From Flavobacterium sp. 5 (lineage in GTDB: Bacteria; Bacteroidota; Bacteroidia; Flavobacteriales; Flavobacteriaceae): DNA of 64,000 bases. Location: assembly GCF_002813295.1 (NCBI RefSeq), contig NZ_PHUE01000001.1, positions 4,836,001 through 4,900,000 of the forward strand. Reading direction: 5' to 3'. The position numbers and the translations under genes are program-made. Below, one piece after another: positions 1 to 59,064 of the stretch. Positions within the stretch are counted from its first letter, which is position 1. Every line of letters begins with the position of its first letter. The notes beneath the pieces are model-generated. The model was not told where the DNA came from. It was given only the letters and a program-made list of their open reading frames with translations, and did not search any database.

Positions 1-3000
1 ACAGCTTCTGCCACTGGTGGAACTGCTGATTATACTTATAGCTGGAATACTACCCCTGTTCAAAATACAGCCATAGCAACTGGACTCGTTGCAGGTACTT
101 ATACCGTAACAGTAACAGATGCGAAAGGATGTACCGATACAGAACAAATTACCATCAACGAACCACAAAATGCTCTTCTTGCTGCTATTGGTTCTGTTGT
201 TGATGTAAATTGTAAAGGCGATGCTTCTGGCTCTGCTACTGCTTCTGCCACTGGTGGAACTGCTGATTATTCTTATAGCTGGAATACTACCCCTGTTCAA
301 AATACAGCCATGGCAACTGGACTCGTTGCAGGCACTTATACCGTAACAGTAACAGATGCGAAAGGATGTACCGATACAGAACAAATTACTATCTCTGAAC
401 CACAAAATGCTCTTCTTGCTGCTATTGGTTCTGTTGTTGATGTAAATTGTAAAGGCGATGCTTCTGGCTCTGCAACAGCTTCTGCCACTGGTGGAACTGC
501 TGATTATTCTTATAGCTGGAATACTACCCCTGTTCAAAATACAGCCATGGCAACTGGACTCGTTGCAGGTACTTATACCGTAACAGTAACAGATGCGAAA
601 GGATGTACCGATACAGAACAAATTACTATCTCTGAACCACAAAATGCTCTTCTTGCTGCTATTGGTTCTGTTGTTGATGTAAATTGTAAAGGCGATGCTT
701 CTGGCTCTGCAACAGCTTCTGCCACTGGTGGAACTGCTGATTATACTTATAGCTGGAATACTACCCCTATTCAAAATACAGCCATGGCAACTGGACTCGT
801 TGCAGGCACTTATACCGTAACAGTAACAGATGCGAAAGGATGTACCGATACAGAACAAATTACTATCTCTGAACCACAAAATGCTCTTCTTGCTGCTATT
901 GGTTCTGTTGTTGATGTAAATTGTAAAGGCGATGCTTCTGGCTCTGCTACTGCTTCTGCCACTGGTGGAACTGCTGATTATACTTATAGCTGGAATACTA
1001 CCCCTATTCAAAACACAGCCATAGCAACTGGACTCGTTGCAGGTACTTATACCGTAACAGTAACAGATGCGAAAGGATGTACCGATACAGAACAAATTAC
1101 TATCTCTGAACCACAAAATGCTCTTCTTGCTGCTATTGGTTCTGTTGTTGATGTAAATTGTAAAGGCGATGCTTCTGGCTCTGCAACAGCTTCTGCCACT
1201 GGTGGAACTGCTGATTATACTTATAGCTGGAATACTACCCCTATTCAAAACACAGCCATAGCAACTGGACTCGTTGCAGGTACTTATACCGTAACAGTAA
1301 CAGATGCGAAAGGATGTACCGATACAGAACAAATTACCATCAACGAACCACAAAATGCTCTTCTTGCTGCTATTGGTTCTGTTGTTGATGTAAATTGTAA
1401 AGGCGATGCTTCTGGCTCTGCTACTGCTTCTGCCACTGGTGGAACTGCTGATTATTCTTATAGCTGGAATACTACCCCTGTTCAAAATACAGCCATGGCA
1501 ACTGGACTCGTTGCAGGTACTTATACCGTAACAGTAACAGATGCGAAAGGATGTACCGATACAGAACAAATTACTATCTCTGAACCACAAAATGCTCTTC
1601 TTGCTGCTATTGGTTCTGTTGTTGATGTAAATTGTAAAGGCGATGCTTCTGGCTCTGCAACAGCTTCTGCCACTGGTGGAACTGCTGATTATACTTATAG
1701 CTGGAATACTACCCCTATTCAAAATACAGCCATGGCAACTGGACTCGTTGCAGGTACTTATACCGTAACAGTAACAGATGCGAAAGGATGTACCGATACA
1801 GAACAAATTACTATCTCTGAACCACAAAATGCTCTTCTTGCTGCTATTGGTTCTGTTGTTGATGTAAATTGTAAAGGCGATGCTTCTGGCTCTGCAACAG
1901 CTTCTGCCACTGGTGGAACTGCTGATTATACTTATAGCTGGAATACTACCCCTATTCAAAATACAGCCATGGCAACTGGACTCGTTGCAGGCACTTATAC
2001 CGTAACAGTAACAGATGCGAAAGGATGTACCGATACAGAACAAATTACTATCTCTGAACCACAAAATGCTCTTCTTGCTGCTATTGGTTCTGTTGTTGAT
2101 GTAAATTGTAAAGGCGATGCTTCTGGCTCTGCAACAGCTTCTGCCACTGGTGGAACTGCTGATTATACTTATAGCTGGAATACTACCCCTATTCAAAACA
2201 CAGCCATAGCAACTGGACTCGTTGCAGGTACTTATACCGTAACAGTAACAGATGCGAAAGGATGTACCGATACAGAACAAATTACCATCAACGAACCACA
2301 AAATGCTCTTCTTGCTGCTATTGGTTCTGTTGTTGATGTAAATTGTAAAGGCGATGCTTCTGGCTCTGCTACTGCTTCTGCCACTGGTGGAACTGCTGAT
2401 TATACTTATAGCTGGAATACTACCCCTGTTCAAAATACAGCCATGGCAACTGGACTCGTTGCAGGCACTTATACCGTAACAGTAACAGATGCGAAAGGAT
2501 GTACCGATACAGAACAAATTACTATCTCTGAACCACAAAATGCTCTTCTTGCTGCTATTGGTTCTGTTGTTGATGTAAATTGTAAAGGCGATGCTTCTGG
2601 CTCTGCAACAGCTTCTGCCACTGGTGGAACTGCTGATTATACTTATAGCTGGAATACTACCCCTATTCAAAACACAGCCATAGCAACTGGACTCGTTGCA
2701 GGTACTTATACCGTAACAGTAACAGATGCGAAAGGATGTACCGATACAGAACAAATTACCATCAACGAACCACAAAATGCTCTTCTTGCTGCTATTGGTT
2801 CTGTTGTTGATGTAAATTGTAAAGGCGATGCTTCTGGCTCTGCTACTGCTTCTGCCACTGGTGGAACTGCTGATTATTCTTATAGCTGGAATACTACCCC
2901 TGTTCAAAATACAGCCATGGCAACTGGACTCGTTGCAGGTACTTATACCGTAACAGTAACAGATGCGAAAGGATGTACCGATACAGAACAAATTACTATC

Positions 3001-6000
3001 TCTGAACCACAAAATGCTCTTCTTGCTGCTATTGGTTCTGTTGTTGATGTAAATTGTAAAGGCGATGCTTCTGGCTCTGCAACAGCTTCTGCCACTGGTG
3101 GAACTGCTGATTATACTTATAGCTGGAATACTACCCCTATTCAAAACACAGCCATAGCAACTGGACTCGTTGCAGGTACTTATACCGTAACAGTAACAGA
3201 TGCGAAAGGATGTACCGATACAGAACAAATTACCATCAACGAACCACAAAATGCTCTTCTTGCTGCTATTGGTTCTGTTGTTGATGTAAATTGTAAAGGC
3301 GATGCTTCTGGCTCTGCTACTGCTTCTGCCACTGGTGGAACTGCTGATTATTCTTATAGCTGGAATACTACCCCTGTTCAAAATACAGCCATGGCAACTG
3401 GACTCGTTGCAGGTACTTATACCGTAACAGTAACAGATGCGAAAGGATGTACCGATACAGAACAAATTACTATCTCTGAACCACAAAATGCTCTTCTTGC
3501 TGCTATTGGTTCTGTTGTTGATGTAAATTGTAAAGGCGATGCTTCTGGCTCTGCAACAGCTTCTGCCACTGGTGGAACTGCTGATTATACTTATAGCTGG
3601 AATACTACCCCTATTCAAAACACAGCCATAGCAACTGGACTCGTTGCAGGTACTTATACCGTAACAGTAACAGATGCGAAAGGATGTACCGATACAGAAC
3701 AAATTACCATCAACGAACCACAAAATGCTCTTCTTGCTGCTATTGGTTCTGTTGTTGATGTAAATTGTAAAGGCGATGCTTCTGGCTCTGCTACTGCTTC
3801 TGCCACTGGTGGAACTGCTGATTATTCTTATAGCTGGAATACTACCCCTGTTCAAAATACAGCCATGGCAACTGGACTCGTTGCAGGTACTTATACCGTA
3901 ACAGTAACAGATGCGAAAGGATGTACCGATACAGAACAAATTACTATCTCTGAACCACAAAATGCTCTTCTTGCTGCTATTGGTTCTGTTGTTGATGTAA
4001 ATTGTAAAGGCAATGCTTCTGGCTCTGCAACAGCTTCTGCCACTGGTGGAACTGCAGATTATACTTATAGCTGGAATACTACCCCTGTTCAAAATACAGC
4101 TATGGCAACTGGACTCGTTGCAGGTACTTATACCCTAACAGTAACAGATGCTAAAGGATGTACCGATACAGAACAAATTACCATTAACGAACCACAAAAT
4201 GCTCTTCTTGCTGCTATTGGTTCTGTTGTTGATGTAAATTGTAAAGGCGATGCTTCTGGCTCTGCTACTGCTTCTGCCACTGGTGGAACTGCTGATTATA
4301 CTTATAGCTGGAATACTACCCCTACTCAAAATACAGCTATGGCAACTGGACTCGTTGCAGGTACTTATACCGTAACAGTAACAGATGCGAAAGGATGTAC
4401 CGATACAGAACAAATTACCATCAACGAACCACAAAATGCTCTTCTTGCTGCTATTGGTTCTGTTGTTGATGTAAATTGTAAAGGCGATGCTTCTGGCTCT
4501 GCAACAGCTTCTGCCACTGGTGGAACTGCTGATTATACTTATAGCTGGAATACTACCCCTGTTCAAAATACAGCTATGGCAACTGGACTCGTTGCAGGTA
4601 CTTATACCGTAACAGTAACAGATGCGAAAGGATGTACCGATACAGAACAAATTACTATCTCTGAACCACAAAATGCTCTTCTTGCTGCTATTGGTTCTGT
4701 TGTTGATGTAAATTGTAAAGGCGATGCTTCTGGCTCTGCAACAGCTTCTGCCACTGGTGGAACTGCTGATTATTCTTATAGCTGGAATACTACCCCTGTT
4801 CAAAATACAGCCATGGCAACTGGACTCGTTGCAGGTACTTATACCGTAACAGTAACAGATGCGAAAGGATGTACCGATACAGAACAAATTACTATCTCTG
4901 AACCACAAAATGCTCTTCTTGCTGCTATTGGTTCTGTTGTTGATGTAAATTGTAAAGGCGATGCTTCTGGCTCTGCAACAGCTTCTGCCACTGGTGGAAC
5001 TGCTGATTATACTTATAGCTGGAATACTACCCCTATTCAAAATACAGCCATGGCAACTGGACTCGTTGCAGGCACTTATACCGTAACAGTAACAGATGCG
5101 AAAGGATGTACCGATACAGAACAAATTACTATCTCTGAACCACAAAATGCTCTTCTTGCTGCTATTGGTTCTGTTGTTGATGTAAATTGTAAAGGCGATG
5201 CTTCTGGCTCTGCTACTGCTTCTGCCACTGGTGGAACTGCTGATTATACTTATAGCTGGAATACTACCCCTATTCAAAACACAGCCATAGCAACTGGACT
5301 CGTTGCAGGTACTTATACCGTAACAGTAACAGATGCGAAAGGATGTACCGATACAGAACAAATTACCATTAACGAACCACAAAATGCTCTTCTTGCTGCT
5401 ATTGGTTCTGTTGTTGATGTAAATTGTAAAGGCGATGCTTCTGGCTCTGCTACTGCTTCTGCCACTGGTGGAACTGCTGATTATACTTATAGCTGGAATA
5501 CTACCCCTGTTCAAAATACAGCCATGGCAACTGGACTCGTTGCAGGCACTTATACCGTAACAGTAACAGATGCGAAAGGATGTACCGATACAGAACAAAT
5601 TACTATCTCTGAACCACAAAATGCTCTTCTTGCTGCTATTGGTTCTGTTGTTGATGTAAATTGTAAAGGCGATGCTTCTGGCTCTGCAACAGCTTCTGCC
5701 ACTGGTGGAACTGCTGATTATACTTATAGCTGGAATACTACCCCTATTCAAAACACAGCCATAGCAACTGGACTCGTTGCAGGTACTTATACCGTAACAG
5801 TAACAGATGCGAAAGGATGTACCGATACAGAACAAATTACCATCAACGAACCACAAAATGCTCTTCTTGCTGCTATTGGTTCTGTTGTTGATGTAAATTG
5901 TAAAGGCGATGCTTCTGGCTCTGCTACTGCTTCTGCCACTGGTGGAACTGCTGATTATTCTTATAGCTGGAATACTACCCCTGTTCAAAATACAGCCATG

Positions 6001-7046
6001 GCAACTGGACTCGTTGCAGGTACTTATACCGTAACAGTAACAGATGCGAAAGGATGTACCGATACAGAACAAATTACTATCTCTGAACCACAAAATGCTC
6101 TTCTTGCTGCTATTGGTTCTGTTGTTGATGTAAATTGTAAAGGCGATGCTTCTGGCTCTGCAACAGCTTCTGCCACTGGTGGAACTGCTGATTATACTTA
6201 TAGCTGGAATACTACCCCTATTCAAAATACAGCCATGGCAACTGGACTCGTTGCAGGCACTTATACCGTAACAGTAACAGATGCGAAAGGATGTACCGAT
6301 ACAGAACAAATTACTATCTCTGAACCACAAAATGCTCTTCTTGCTGCTATTGGTTCTGTTGTTGATGTAAATTGTAAAGGCGATGCTTCTGGCTCTGCAA
6401 CAGCTTCTGCCACTGGTGGAACTGCTGATTATACTTATAGCTGGAATACTACCCCTATTCAAAACACAGCCATAGCAACTGGACTCGTTGCAGGTACTTA
6501 TACCGTAACAGTAACAGATGCGAAAGGATGTACCGATACAGAACAAATTACCATCAACGAACCACAAAATGCTCTTCTTGCTGCTATTGGTTCTGTTGTT
6601 GATGTAAATTGTAAAGGCGATGCTTCTGGCTCTGCTACTGCTTCTGCCACTGGTGGAACTGCTGATTATTCTTATAGCTGGAATACTACCCCTGTTCAAA
6701 ATACAGCCATGGCAACTGGACTCGTTGCAGGTACTTATACCGTAACAGTAACAGATGCGAAAGGATGTACCGATACAGAACAAATTACTATCTCTGAACC
6801 ACAAAATGCTCTTCTTGCTGCTATTGGTTCTGTTGTTGATGTAAATTGTAAAGGCGATGCTTCTGGCTCTGCAACAGCTTCTGCCACTGGTGGAACTGCT
6901 GATTATACTTATAGCTGGAATACTACCCCTGCTCAAAATACAGCCATGGCAACTGGACTCGTTGCAGGCACTTATACCGTAACAGTAACAGATGCGAAAG
7001 GATGTACCGATACAGAACAAATTACCATCTCTGAACCACAAAATGT
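1..7046 (+). repeat. Tandem array of thirty 237-bp SprB repeats
   Basis: The start of the motif gcttctgccactggtgga recurs at 4, 241, 478 and 715, and every 237 bases up to 6877, giving 30 in-register copies. The unit is exactly 79 codons. Copies differ at a few linked positions: DYSYS or DYTYS, TPV/TPI/TPT/TPA before QNTA, NTAM or NTAI, and ISEP or INEP. Synonymous differences such as gctactgct versus gcaacagct also recur. The array continues beyond the left edge of the window. Confidence 0.97.
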
Positions 7047-54666: not shown

Positions 54667-55167
54667 ATGAAAAAAAACTACTATTGCTTATATTTATTAT
54701 TTGGTATCATCTTTTCTAGTCAAGCACAGGAAAACACTTTAAAAAATGCGATTGGGCTTCGATTTGGAAACAATCATGGCCTTGGCATTGAAGTTTCGTA
54801 TCAGAACAAACTATCTCTAAAAAACAGATTAGAACTTGATTTTGGTTGGACAAATGATAACCATACTGATGCTTTAAAAATATCTGGAATTTACCAATGG
54901 TATTGGAATTTTGAAAAGGAAGTAGATTGGTATGCAGGTTTTGGTGGAGGATTAGGATCTTGGAATACCGATAACAATTATATGAACAGCTATGGAAATG
55001 ATAATGGTATTTTTTATGTAATCAACGGTGATGTTGGTATTGAATATAACTTTAAAGAAATTCCTATTCAATTAGCTATAGATCTAAGACCTGAATATGT
55101 CTTTAATAATTATGAGAGAAATGATTTTGGAATTAACTTTGGTTTAAGCATTCGGTACAAATTCTAA
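54667..55167 (+). CDS. Small outer-membrane beta-barrel protein
   Basis: This 166-residue protein has a signal peptide ending near FSSQAQE. Alternating hydrophobic strands follow with glycine-rich turns (WYAGFGGGLGSWNTDNN). It ends in FGLSIRYKF, a terminal aromatic typical of barrels inserted by BamA. The size suggests an eight-stranded barrel. No ligand is predictable, and it stands alone with its own terminator. Confidence 0.8.
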   Translation: MKKNYYCLYLLFGIIFSSQAQENTLKNAIGLRFGNNHGLGIEVSYQNKLSLKNRLELDFGWTNDNHTDALKISGIYQWYWNFEKEVDWYAGFGGGLGSWNTDNNYMNSYGNDNGIFYVINGDVGIEYNFKEIPIQLAIDLRPEYVFNNYERNDFGINFGLSIRYKF

Positions 55168-55170
55168 AAT

Positions 55171-55210
55171 AAAAAATCCATCTCTATCAATAAAATAGGA
55201 TGGATTTTTT
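55171..55210. terminator. Terminator between the small OMP gene and bshA
   Basis: A 12-bp stem (AAAAAATCCATC / GATGGATTTTTT), with an inner CTAT/ATAG pairing, lies between converging genes and has T-runs on both strands. Confidence 0.88.
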
Positions 55211-55229
55211 ATTAATTATATTGAATTAC

Positions 55230-56363
55230 TTATTTGTATTTATTAATCGCTTTATGATATAAATCCTCATAGATTGGTAAAATATTTTTTATATCAAATT
55301 GTTCAGCAACATGCAACGCATTCTTTTTAAACTCATTAAGAACGCTGTCTTCTTTTAAAATTTTCAATGCATTTTCAGCCATTTCATTTACGTTACCAAC
55401 ATCACTCAAATAACCTGAAACGCCATCACTATTTACTTCAGGTAAACCTCCCGAATTACTTGATATTACGGGAACTCCACATGCCATAGCTTCGAGTGCT
55501 GCCAAACCAAAACTTTCGGTTTCTGAAGGCAAAAGAAACAAATCGGTAAGACACAAAATTCGGTCAATTTCATTGCTATTACCAAAGAATATTACCTTGT
55601 CCTGAATACCATATTTTCTGCACAACTTCTCTGCTTTCTCTTTTTCAGGTCCATCTCCTACCATCATTAATTTGGCTGGAATTTCTTTTTGAATCTTATA
55701 AAAAATCTTAATAATATCTGGAATTCGCTTTACTTTTCGAAAATTACTAATATGCGTAATTATTCTTTCATTATCGTTGGCCATTACTGAACGTCTACAA
55801 GGAACAGTCGGATCATAATCATTTTTATTTAATTCAATAAAATTAGGAATAACCTGAATTTGATTTTTTATATTGAATAATTTCAACGTATCATCTTTTA
55901 GACTTTGAGAAACTGAAGTCACATAATCTGATTTGTTTATACTAAATGTCACCGCTGGTTTATAAAAAGGATGATTCCCTACCAAAGTAATATCTGTCCC
56001 ATGCAGAGTTGTCACCATTGGAATATCAATTCCTTCATCTTTTAGCATTTGTTTCGCCATATAACCTGCATATGCGTGTGGGATAGCATAATGTACGTGC
56101 AAAACTTCAATTTTGTACAATTTAACCATATCCACCAATTTACTGGACAAAGCCAATTCGTAAGGCTGAAAATGAAAAAGAGGGTATTCAGGAACTATTA
56201 CTTCGTGATAATGAACATTTGGATTAAGTAATGCCAAACGTACTGGTTGACTATAGGTAATAAAATGAATTTCATGGCCTCTTCTAGCTAACTCCAAACC
56301 TAATTCTGTTGCAACTACTCCACTTCCGCCAAAAGTAGGATAACAAACAATTGCTATTTTCAT
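55230..56363 (-). CDS. bshA: N-acetyl-alpha-D-glucosaminyl L-malate synthase
   Basis: This 377-residue GT4 glycosyltransferase makes the first intermediate of bacillithiol from UDP-GlcNAc and malate. CYPTFGGSGVVATELGLELA at the N-terminus and the retaining-GT motif PSETESFGLAALEAMACGVP at the C-terminal domain are diagnostic, and LHVHYAIPHAY matches BshA. The product is a low-molecular-weight thiol precursor for redox and metal stress defence. No bshB or bshC is in the window. Confidence 0.93.
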   Translation of the reverse strand: MKIAIVCYPTFGGSGVVATELGLELARRGHEIHFITYSQPVRLALLNPNVHYHEVIVPEYPLFHFQPYELALSSKLVDMVKLYKIEVLHVHYAIPHAYAGYMAKQMLKDEGIDIPMVTTLHGTDITLVGNHPFYKPAVTFSINKSDYVTSVSQSLKDDTLKLFNIKNQIQVIPNFIELNKNDYDPTVPCRRSVMANDNERIITHISNFRKVKRIPDIIKIFYKIQKEIPAKLMMVGDGPEKEKAEKLCRKYGIQDKVIFFGNSNEIDRILCLTDLFLLPSETESFGLAALEAMACGVPVISSNSGGLPEVNSDGVSGYLSDVGNVNEMAENALKILKEDSVLNEFKKNALHVAEQFDIKNILPIYEDLYHKAINKYK

Positions 56364-56658
56364 ATATATATTTGATTGTTTTTATTGATCATATTTAATT
56401 TGCAAATCACTATAAATATTACTACTATATTTAGGTTATGCACTTTTTATATATGATTTTAAAGTCTAACGAAAGTAAGGAGATTAGCTGGGGTTTATTA
56501 TGAAAAAAAAGTTAAATTTTAACATTTTTAAGGTTAGGTCAAATGTTGTGTAATATGGTTCAATTGTATCGGACTATTTTCAAATTTAATTGACTGCATG
56601 CGTTATCACTTCGGACTAGAATGCAATTTAGTGATAGAATTCTACGAATAACCCCAAA

Positions 56659-56848
56659 TTTGACGTTCCAGACGTCAAGTTTGGGGTCATTAACGCCAAC
56701 TATGGGGTTCCAGACGCCATATTTGACGTTCCTGACATCAAATTTGGGGTTATACAACGTCAATTATGGGGTTCCAGGCGTCAAATTTAGGGTTCCGAAC
56801 GCCATATTTGACGTCTGCAGCGTCAACTATGGGGTCCTGAGGGCATAC
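56659..56848. repeat. Array of nine degenerate 21-bp near-palindromic units
   Basis: Units start at 56659, 56680, 56701, 56722, 56743 (22 bp), 56765, 56786, 56807 and 56828. The ideal unit is TTTGACGT-N5-ACGTCAAA, almost perfectly met by the first (8-bp arms, TCCAG loop). Others begin TATGGGGT, TTTGGGGT or TTTAGGGT and end ACGCCATA, ACGCCAAC or similar. A partial unit ending ACCCCAAA precedes 56659. Base composition is richer in G+C than the flanks. Confidence 0.9.
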
Positions 56849-56938
56849 GTATCATTATTGGGAATAAATACTATTGATGCAGCCTTAAAAATCTATTTAT
56901 TTTAAAACATACATCGTTTACTTCCTAATCTTTTTTTT

Positions 56939-57047
56939 GCGTGTGGGATTGAAGTAGAGCTCTTTTTATATTTGTCGATTTTTCTTCGCCGAATATAAAA
57001 AAGCAGGAACGGAAAGCCCGACCCGACCTTTTTGGGAGGGTCACGCC
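56939..57047 (+). ncRNA. Structured intergenic element, possibly Flavo-1-like RNA
   Basis: An outer stem pairs GCGTG (56939) with CACGC (57042-57046). One inner hairpin pairs CTTTTTATATT with AATATAAAAAAG around a TTCG-like loop. A second pairs GACC with GGTC around CCTTTTTGG. The conserved-looking stretches GGGATTGAAG and GGAAAGCCCGACCCG recall a dispersed flavobacterial intergenic element and the Flavo-1 candidate RNA of comparative-genomics surveys. The family name is from memory and unverified. Confidence 0.5.
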
Positions 57048-57104
57048 TAAATAAACTTTTTAAAACTAATGAAGTGAATTGAAATTGATGAAGTTAAAAA
57101 TAAT

Positions 57105-57719
57105 TTATTCCCAAAGCTTTTTTTGATGTGGTGCTCTTTTTTTATTAATCCATTTATTCAATTTGTAGCATAAAAAAGCAGATCCACTACCTACGATCGC
57201 ACCTGCCAAAACATCGGTAGGATAATGAACTCCGAGATACATTCGGGAATACCCTACTGCACCTGCCCACAAAAAAGAAGGTGCAATAACATACCATTTA
57301 GGATATGCCATGCTTAATGATGTAGCCGTTGCAAAAGCTGCAGAAGTATGTCCGGAAGGAAAGGAATAACTCGACTCATTAGTAACATTATCAATTTCTG
57401 GATAGGTTACATAGGGTCTATCTCGCTTAATACTGTTTTTTAATACAAGAGTAATAAATGCAGAAGCAGCCAATGTTTCTCCAACAAAGACTGCTTTTTT
57501 TTTGGTAGTACTGTCTTTTTCTATCAATCCGACAGCATATATAATAACTGGAGTTCCGATACTAATAGCAAAAGTACTATTGGTCACCCCTTTCATAAGA
57601 GGTTCTATGTTTGTATTTCTATTGAGATTGATTTTTTCTAAAAGATCAATATCTGAATTTTGAGCATTTGAAATTGAAAAACAAAACAGGAATAAAAAAA
57701 GACAAATAATTTTAGACAT
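57105..57719 (-). CDS. PAP2-family membrane phosphatase
   Basis: This 204-residue protein has a signal-like N-terminus and several membrane helices. The three phosphatase motifs are present: KNSIKRDRP, PSGHTS, and SRMYLGVHYPTDVLAG. These use a catalytic histidine on lipid phosphates or undecaprenyl pyrophosphate. It is the last gene of a six-gene minus-strand envelope run, 18 bases after its neighbour. The lipid substrate is not determined. Confidence 0.9.
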   Translation of the reverse strand: MSKIICLFLFLFCFSISNAQNSDIDLLEKINLNRNTNIEPLMKGVTNSTFAISIGTPVIIYAVGLIEKDSTTKKKAVFVGETLAASAFITLVLKNSIKRDRPYVTYPEIDNVTNESSYSFPSGHTSAAFATATSLSMAYPKWYVIAPSFLWAGAVGYSRMYLGVHYPTDVLAGAIVGSGSAFLCYKLNKWINKKRAPHQKKLWE

Positions 57720-57737
57720 CTTTTGTTTTTGATTCGG

Positions 57738-58220
57738 TTAAAAAAAACGACTATGCCAGCTATCTAAAGCAGGTACCTCCCAAGATTCATTAAATTCTTC
57801 GATATTGTTTACCAAATTATTGAAGACAATTGTGTTTTCGGTAACGGCTTTATCTTTGACCATTTTCTTGAAGTCAATCAATGGTTTGTGTGCAATGTGA
57901 TCTCCAAGTTTGAAGGTTACATTCATTTTATCCAATAAATCTACATTGTATTTTTTTTCTAAGCTTTGGATAAATTCTACTGAAGAATCAATAGAACACC
58001 CCGTTGCTGCTTGAATTTCTTGGTTAACTGCTAAAATAATAAAACGATTGTATTTTAACAAATAAGAACATTCAAGGCTAGTTCCGTGTGCGGCCCATTC
58101 GTTAAGAAAGGATTGCAAATCTGTTTCGATTTCAGAAAACTCGGCATCCGAAAATTTTCTATTCGATTGATAAATCCAAATTTTAGATTCTCCGGGTAAA
58201 TTTTCAAAAGGAACGTACAT
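57738..58220 (-). CDS. Conserved 160-residue protein of unknown function
   Basis: It begins MYVPFENLPGESKIWIYQSN and has a mixed alpha/beta composition, with a conserved-looking SLECSYLLKYNRFIILAV stretch. No Walker A, Walker B or signature motif is present, although flavobacterial homologues are often labelled ABC transporter ATPase. It lies between the HdrB-like gene and the PAP2 gene in a tight run. No function is assigned. Confidence 0.8.
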   Translation of the reverse strand: MYVPFENLPGESKIWIYQSNRKFSDAEFSEIETDLQSFLNEWAAHGTSLECSYLLKYNRFIILAVNQEIQAATGCSIDSSVEFIQSLEKKYNVDLLDKMNVTFKLGDHIAHKPLIDFKKMVKDKAVTENTIVFNNLVNNIEEFNESWEVPALDSWHSRFF

Positions 58221-58264
58221 ATTAATTATGAATTATGAGTTATTAATTATGAATTTAAAATTCG
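58221..58264. repeat. Short AT-rich direct repeat, 21-bp period
   Basis: ATTAATTATGAATT occurs at 58221-58234 and again at 58242-58255, with related sequence between. Such stretches recur in flavobacterial intergenic regions. It sits between two co-directional genes. Confidence 0.7.
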
Positions 58265-58272
58265 TAATTGAT

Positions 58273-59064
58273 TTATATATCTTGGGCATTTGCTATTAAT
58301 TCTGCTATATCCATTACTTTAACATCACCTTCTCTTTCTTTATTTTTAACACCGTCAGTCAACATGGTGTTACAAAAAGGACAACCTGCAGCAATAATAT
58401 GTGGTTTTGTTTCTAGAGCATCTTCAGTTCTTTCTACATTGATTTCTTTGTTTCCAGGTTCAGCATCTTTAAACATCTGTGCTCCGCCAGCTCCACAACA
58501 CAAACCATTTGCTTTTGAGCGTTTCATTTCAACCAATTCTGCATCCAATTTTTGAATTAAATCTCTTGGTGCTTCATAAACATTATTGGCTCTACCTAAA
58601 TAACAAGGATCGTGAAAAGCAATTCTCTTTCCTTTAAACTGACCTCCTTCAATCGTTAATCTTCCTGAATCTAATAATGATTTAAGGAATTCTGTATGAT
58701 GAACAACTTCATAATGACCACCCAATTCTGGATATTCATTTTTTAAAGTATTAAAGCAATGTGGACAAGCAGTAACTATTTTCTTTGCTTCGTAAGCGTT
58801 TAGCACTTCGATATTCATCATGGCTTGCATCTGAAACAAAAACTCATTTCCTGCTCTTTTAGCCGGATCTCCAGTACAACTTTCTTCGGTACCAAGAACA
58901 GCAAAAGATACATTAGCACGATTCAAGATTTGAACAAATGCTTTGGTTATTTTCTTAGCTCTATCGTCAAAACTTCCTGCACAACCTACCCAGAATAAAA
59001 CTTCCGGTTGTTTTCCTTGAGCAAGCATCTCTGCCATTGTTGGCACTATTAAACTTTCTGACAT
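58273..59064 (-). CDS. Fe-S oxidoreductase with two CCG domains (HdrB/GlpC-like)
   Basis: This 263-residue soluble protein has two cysteine-rich CCG modules. The first contains FWVGCAGSFDDRAKK and TACPHCFNTLKNEY. The second contains FHDPCYLGR, LCCGAGGAQMF and AAGCPFCN. This matches subunit B of heterodisulfide-reductase-like and LutA/GlpC-like complexes, which bind an unusual Fe-S cluster. It follows the membrane Fe-S protein by 73 bases, so the two form an HdrC-HdrB type electron-transfer pair. The physiological electron donor or acceptor is unknown. Confidence 0.88.
   Translation of the reverse strand: MSESLIVPTMAEMLAQGKQPEVLFWVGCAGSFDDRAKKITKAFVQILNRANVSFAVLGTEESCTGDPAKRAGNEFLFQMQAMMNIEVLNAYEAKKIVTACPHCFNTLKNEYPELGGHYEVVHHTEFLKSLLDSGRLTIEGGQFKGKRIAFHDPCYLGRANNVYEAPRDLIQKLDAELVEMKRSKANGLCCGAGGAQMFKDAEPGNKEINVERTEDALETKPHIIAAGCPFCNTMLTDGVKNKEREGDVKVMDIAELIANAQDI

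Follow-up and report, generated by a model that had tools for sequence, protein, structure and literature searches.

The nine-unit palindromic repeat examined here, which lies in a 64,000-nucleotide stretch of the Flavobacterium sp. 5 genome (the window; contig NZ_PHUE01000001.1, positions 4,836,001 to 4,900,000), is one dispersed array of an apparently undescribed Bacteroidota module made up of a gene and its arrays. The module as we propose it would comprise an orphan protein of ~160 aa, predicted to be all-helical, together with a home array beside its gene and dispersed arrays of the same type, one subfamily adding an HTH protein that is encoded just past the array. The reading that we favour, with some reserve, is that the array forms a row of putative binding sites in phase with the helix, belonging to a dedicated chromosomal protein–DNA module. 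Literature searching found no description of such a gene-plus-array module, and in the searches made no described system corresponded to either the arrays or the protein family, REPtrons being the nearest in layout.

Nine 16-bp palindromic cores of the form ACNYC-AAATTT-GRNGT occupy window positions 56651–56835, with no strand assigned, and follow one another at steps of 21, 21, 21, 21, 22, 21, 21 and 21 bp (5-nt spacers and one of 6 nt). The first-pass annotation had placed nine units of 21–22 bp at 56659–56848; the array is real and its units do number nine, the cores having the boundaries given here. In order they read ACCCC AAATTT GACGT (core 1, 56651–56666), ACGTC AAGTTT GGGGT (core 2, 56672–56687), ACGCC AACTAT GGGGT (core 3, 56693–56708), ACGCC ATATTT GACGT (core 4, 56714–56729), ACATC AAATTT GGGGT (core 5, 56735–56750, followed by the only 6-nt spacer and hence by the 22-bp step), ACGTC AATTAT GGGGT (core 6, 56757–56772), GCGTC AAATTT AGGGT (core 7, 56778–56793), ACGCC ATATTT GACGT (core 8, 56799–56814) and GCGTC AACTAT GGGGT (core 9, 56820–56835). 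TRF reported periods of 21 (score 107) and 63 (score 180) for this array, and the motif originally described, TTTGACGT-N5-ACGTCAAA, was matched three times in the window with ≤3 mismatches where 0.42 matches would be expected, a count of three being reached in 2/100 shuffles. Flanking the array, both on the minus strand, are a gene at 55230–56363, presumably glycosyltransferase-like, and another at 57105–57719, which from its sequence we take to be PAP2-like. We call this array and its relatives type A; the family gene of that type lies outside the window, at about 2.0025–2.0030 Mb of the contig.

The lack of any second array had been named as a refuting outcome, and a search for clusters of the motif in this and other flavobacterial genomes had been proposed; further arrays were found in both. 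Four more type A arrays were located by DNA search in the same genome (near 1.288, 1.551, 2.002 and 2.286 Mb), and a profile of two adjacent units, built from sequence only, detected type A arrays in at least 35/398 Flavobacterium genomes, a lower bound as the best 17 candidates were scored per genome. A search of 100 genomes, this one included, gave matches in six other Flavobacterium genomes and none in the searched genomes outside Flavobacterium. With a stringent pattern, at least 80 stretches were recovered from a species-level collection, mostly from Flavobacterium; the matches listed also came from Kaistella, Epilithonimonas, Chryseobacterium and Bacteroidota MAGs, and among them were two MAGs labelled Acidobacteria and Bdellovibrio. 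The stringent pattern found nothing in viral contigs, nor did the window array, used as query, in plasmids. Lone units matching a degenerate pattern with ≤3 mismatches showed no genome-wide excess (195 and 202 matches, against 400 and 429 for the reversed control): the signal resides in arrays, not in lone units. Several contigs of the draft genome G218 end at or begin with arrays (L062, L065–L068), and arrays may break short-read assemblies and hence be undercounted. Tandem repeats of 21 bp but of other sequence, with no family gene seen beside them, were noticed on contigs that also carry a type A array (L157, 316–500 and 2000–2600; L160, 1225–1400).

The anatomy of type A arrays was characterised after leaving out those with fewer than six units or more than one odd step. 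The first set comprised 92 arrays, in which eight pairs have an exact 60-mer in common, one of these pairs being a chain running into weak units (L108); the main set, from which arrays overlapping by an exact 60-mer were removed, comprised 84 arrays and 852 units. Eight units was the commonest length (24 of the 84 arrays), and 766/768 spacers measured 5 or 6 nt (673 of 5 nt, 93 of 6 nt, and one each of 7 and 4 nt). In the 92-array set the leading half-sites were the same on both sides of the unit (ACGTC, ACCCC, ACGCC and ACCTC) and the unit profile was symmetric, without a one-ended tag. By eye, alternative words appear at the same positions, namely ACGTC or ACCCC in type A half-sites, GAGCTAAACTC or GAGGTGAACGG at L299 1272–1470, and ACCAATA or ACCTGTT in type C units.

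That divergence between units often keeps their symmetry, and that compensatory change might exceed chance, had been suggested at the outset; in the 84 arrays this holds for the central core only. The two half-sites of a unit vary independently; complementary change in the mid-core exceeded that in within-array shuffles at positions 5/12 (z 3.7), 7/10 (z 7.2) and 8/9 (z 8.1), whereas pairs in the hairpin arms showed no excess complementarity (3/14, z −2.3; 4/13, z −1.1) and neither did pairs across the spacer (top z 1.8). In the 92 partly overlapping arrays the result was alike, except that one spacer pair was also in excess (12/5, z 4.9). Since positions 8 and 9 are adjacent and cannot pair in a hairpin, and since the spacer shows no excess, the symmetry looks like what would be expected of a site recognised in double-stranded DNA, although the central symmetry may instead be of mutational origin. 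A simple test of unit-consensus symmetry was significant in 5/17 stretches but not in the window array (P 0.12), and outside types A and C the palindromy is therefore putative.

These measurements bear on whether the units, or the array as a whole, act instead as folded strands, be it as a terminator, an RNA element or a cruciform, which we consider improbable. Taken as single-stranded DNA or RNA, the plus strand of the window array folded better than 200/200 dinucleotide shuffles (z −7.4), and the minus strand also outdid its shuffles (z −5.7); the arrays at 1.551 and 2.002 Mb are able to fold as one long hairpin, and mirror pairing was above shuffles in the first 16 arrays. However, the arm pairs lack covariation, and folding was no better than with the order of units shuffled: across 84 arrays of ≤16 units, longer ones having been left out, mean z was 0.01, with seven arrays below −1.65, two above 1.65 and only L012 below −3. 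By eye, moreover, most arrays at the home loci read sit past a terminator-like hairpin belonging to the gene, and the orientation of genes around 73 arrays (43 tandem, 16 divergent, 14 convergent) showed no preference, unlike that expected of a terminator. An Rfam search of window positions 55000–58300 at E≤1 returned only Flavo-1, beside the array, and no covariance-model match on the array itself; at the gathering score, six further loci likewise gave Flavo-1 only. Matches to Flavo-1 (RF01705) lie near three arrays (window 56934–57027, L013 4071–4150 and L074 3340–3443).

The array had also been described as open to reading on both strands, with a relic of a repeat-coding gene offered as one explanation, 21 bp being seven codons. 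ORFs of 94 aa (plus strand) and 67 aa (minus strand) do overlap the window array, but its 22-bp step breaks the frame. Among the 84 arrays, 48 have at least one stop-free frame of the six and 23 contain only 21-bp steps, against 36 with no stop-free frame and 61 with steps other than 21 bp; type C arrays, described below, step strictly by 22 bp. A repeat-coding gene or its relic thus has next to no likelihood in our estimate.

When the genes around the 92 arrays were clustered, the sole recurrent family beyond one conserved locus was that of the ~160-aa protein, present at 18/92 loci. Twelve of the loci were inspected in detail; ten carry the complete gene and two only C-terminal pieces of it, and the array is found beyond the gene's 3′ end. 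The association was quantified by searching both 600-bp flanks of family genes for periodicities between 15 and 35 bp, called at z≥4. A period of 21 or 22 bp was found beside 80/108 family genes, compared with 8/436 control segments, these being single 600-bp segments, so that, a gene having two flanks and thus two chances, the fair control rate is about 16/436. Ten loci gained through array searches were listed as biased, and 100 genes remain once they are removed; of these genes, found by protein search only, 72/100 had a 21/22-bp array within 600 bp (49/65, 13/18 and 10/17 by falling profile score), with a best period of 21 bp in 58 and 22 bp in 14. No array reached threshold beside the other 28/100, some of which have arrays that, by eye, drift in step, and others none; L213 and L214, for example, are negatives of the scan with arrays visible by eye. 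Array sequence differs completely between branches of the family, while the 21/22-bp step is kept phylum-wide.

Gene and array also tend to share genomes. The family gene occurs in 47/398 Flavobacterium genomes, namely in 23/35 of those with type A arrays (as listed, a lower bound on array carriage) and in 24/363 of those without (Fisher P 5e-16, uncorrected for relatedness). For the 12 array genomes lacking the gene, profile searching recovered divergent members in two genomes, and in both of these a 21-bp array adjoins one or more of the copies; 10/35 type A array genomes had no family gene detectable even by this search. Across the phylum, a survey found the family in 23/296 genomes and 15/139 genera. 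A distant relative is carried by a gammaproteobacterial plasmid, pTs417 of Candidatus Thiodictyon syntrophicum (L308), where no array lies beside the gene.

This link bears on a more ordinary origin, in which the arrays would be minisatellites drifting by slippage and associated with the gene by chance or hitchhiking. Adjacent units are indeed more alike than distant ones (92-array set; the excess in identity is 0.030 at distance 1 and falls below zero from distance 5 on), and some 21-bp tandem repeats lie away from the gene family. Slippage is nonetheless a poor account of a step held at 21–22 bp throughout a phylum while the sequence is replaced, of a gene link of 72/100 against 8/436, and of coexisting types with dispersed copies, and we give it very little weight, marginally less than folding.

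Several types coexist in the genome from which the window was taken. Five family genes are present, at 2.002, 2.384, 3.193, 1.391 and 0.347 Mb, each adjoining an array of different sequence. The gene at 3.193 Mb defines type C, of which six more arrays were found elsewhere, each with a best period of 22; the totals seen are thus five arrays of type A and seven of type C (at least four and six, respectively, being dispersed). At nine loci, all of the subfamily with types C, D and E, the order on one strand is helical gene, array, and then a gene of a Cro/C1-type HTH family; an HTH gene was not found beside type A genes. One protein of this HTH family passes the Pfam HTH_26 cut-off, and another that was tested had no HTH match. 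As the array sits where the operator of the HTH gene would be, the HTH protein is a natural candidate for its binder. At one type E locus (L264, 3505–4548) a tyrosine recombinase gene (PF00589) follows the array and the HTH gene, without recurrence at the other loci examined.

The helical protein itself is an orphan. No convincing family emerged when Pfam, NCBIfam and PHROGs were scanned: the likeness to DUF6730 (PF20503) consists of weak matches in 15/52 members (best E 0.00037), and the L090 protein scores 14.2 bits against it, below the cut-off of 27. AlphaFold models of the type A and type C proteins, which are 21% identical, share a set of five helices, including in both a helix of 55 residues (pLDDT 89.4 and 87.6; pTM 0.69 and 0.67), and neither model had a Foldseek match in the PDB at E≤0.001. 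It is a speculation from these models that the protein measures the step, a 55-residue helix being ~8 nm long and 21 bp ~7 nm. With a pI of 5.6 the type A protein is acidic, as is the majority of the 52 members; the one basic group is that of type B.

Three explanations were put forward at first: clustered binding sites, a signal for replication or segregation, and a coding relic. The first of them has the most support, and there is now a gene family that is its candidate partner. Under the arrangement that we envisage, sites repeated every 21 bp, about two helical turns, would all face the same side of the duplex; each palindromic core would be occupied by a protein of two-fold symmetry, and the fixed step would allow neighbours to touch and a regular complex to form. 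The home array may also control the genes of its module, and several modules with unrelated site sequences coexist in one genome. Either the HTH protein or the helical protein, or both, could bind the array, presumably cooperatively and without cross-reaction between types, and any role in the cell, whether in chromosome organisation, segregation or gene control, is conjectural. A binding platform gives the best account of the constant step, of symmetry as in duplex DNA, of the HTH gene and of types that coexist; selfish spread accounts for the copying. Counted against it are the acidity of the type A protein, in which no recognisable DNA-binding domain was found, the restriction of the HTH gene to nine loci, the 28/100 genes without an array, the 10/35 array genomes without a gene, and the period present in 8/436 controls.

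Parallels exist among known arrays of sites. Iterons and centromere-like arrays (parS, or parC with ParB, ParR or TubR) are helix-phased short sites beside the gene of their binder, and in such systems sites and binder change together. The present arrays resemble them in keeping sites in helical phase (of 72 called arrays, 58 have a best period of 21 bp and 14 of 22 bp), but differ in being several per chromosome and dispersed, and in being chromosomal, not plasmid-borne, in the searches made; no ParA-, ParM- or TubZ-like gene recurs beside them. CRISPR loci also consist of palindromic repeats, regularly spaced, with spacers of roughly 20–40 bp and adjacent cas genes. The arrays likewise have palindromic repeats at regular spacing by a gene family, yet their units are degenerate and their spacers measure 4–7 nt, and no cas family recurs among their neighbours, so that the initial judgement that this is not CRISPR is probably right. 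DUF6261, considered as a relative system, gave five genes in 2/148 genomes and no clear array in a lag scan.

The main rival is selfish DNA akin to REPINs, in which a factor from the home gene would copy and spread the arrays, the dispersed ones being non-autonomous offspring with no function for the host; we regard this as rather unlikely as the full account, although a binding platform and selfish spread could both hold. Home genes with dispersed repeats of their own type, as for types A and C, are what it would lead one to expect. The nearest neighbour of an array in sequence was in the same genome in 27/41 cases (shuffled mean 3.0), five arrays in G138 have a common flank of about 270–355 bp, and two arrays in G434 carry C-terminal pieces of the family gene; from these flanks and gene pieces, arrays appear to spread by the copying of segments with varying ends. 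The distribution is patchy, with the gene in 47/398 genomes and type A arrays in at least 35/398, and in G029, the only relative found with the same gene pair as the window locus, no array is seen at that place; an exact empty site was not found, the one syntenic relative being too diverged. On the other hand, the copies read in G138 and G434 have no fixed ends, few arrays per genome were seen (five of type A and seven of type C here), and the home locus is conserved in several genomes. Fixed ends, with terminal inverted repeats and a target duplication, would mark a MITE or other insertion element, and the varying ends of these copies agree in part with the initial judgement that the array is no MITE. 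The searches made revealed no likeness between the protein, predicted to be all-helical, and any transposase, and the type A protein had no match among phages, viral contigs or plasmids. At one conserved locus, presumably rsgA–dtd, an array is present in L079, L100 and L090, together with a gene for a methylase-like protein of 823 to 859 aa in G404 and G319 or a Y1 transposase in G163, and the locus may therefore be a hot spot for insertion.

REP and REPIN sequences with their RAYT transposases (REPtrons) are described as short palindromic intergenic repeats with the gene beside a cluster of its own type (PMC3116915, PMC3733652). The likeness extends to intergenic palindromes, a gene beside its own cluster, several types per genome and dispersed copies; a repeat cluster beside its cognate gene together with dispersed copies is present here for types A and C, with a different gene family. 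The differences are that the helical family is not a Y1 transposase, that the repeats form phased rows of about eight units and not hairpin doublets, that arm pairing is not conserved and that copies are few. Y1_Tnp searches of 15 array genomes gave 36 matches in 11 of them, one of which lies within 1 kb of an array read (G163, L090). Identity with REPIN–RAYT is not supported, as a Y1 gene does not as a rule accompany the arrays read in these genomes and stem pairing at 3/14 and 4/13 is not conserved. CGTC-tagged REPs, for which no dedicated transposase is known and which are described from five phyla, Bacteroidetes among them, have stems of 8–9 bp and loops of 4–5 nt; at one end they bear a CGTC tag that stays unpaired, they also have a CCA-like tail, and they are seldom found in clusters (PMC3733652). 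Their stem and loop sizes are close to those of TTTGACGT-N5-ACGTCAAA (PMC3733652), but the symmetric profile, the lack of a one-ended tag and the arrangement in arrays set the present units apart, a distinction drawn from the description of those REPs.

A broader formulation of the binding platform, to which we lean a little less than half-way, is that these modules are phylum-wide systems of chromosomal addressing, in which each orphan helical protein, either alone or joined by a Cro/C1-like partner, would assemble on its own scattered arrays phased at two turns, with up to five systems per cell, each having its own site, and with sites rewritten repeatedly while the 21/22-bp step is kept. 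Should the link between gene and array hold, a widespread family without assigned function would acquire a DNA partner, and Bacteroidota would offer a system whose geometry is constant while its sites and proteins are altered in sequence time and again, along with natural sets of protein–DNA pairs of differing specificity. It would also allow one to test directly whether bacterial chromosomes are organised by scattered arrays or whether these represent a new kind of selfish repeat.

A further repeat was noted elsewhere in the window, at positions 1–7045, where TRF reported a 237-bp unit in 29.7 copies with 96% matches; it runs off the window edge and probably belongs to a giant protein built of 79-residue repeats.
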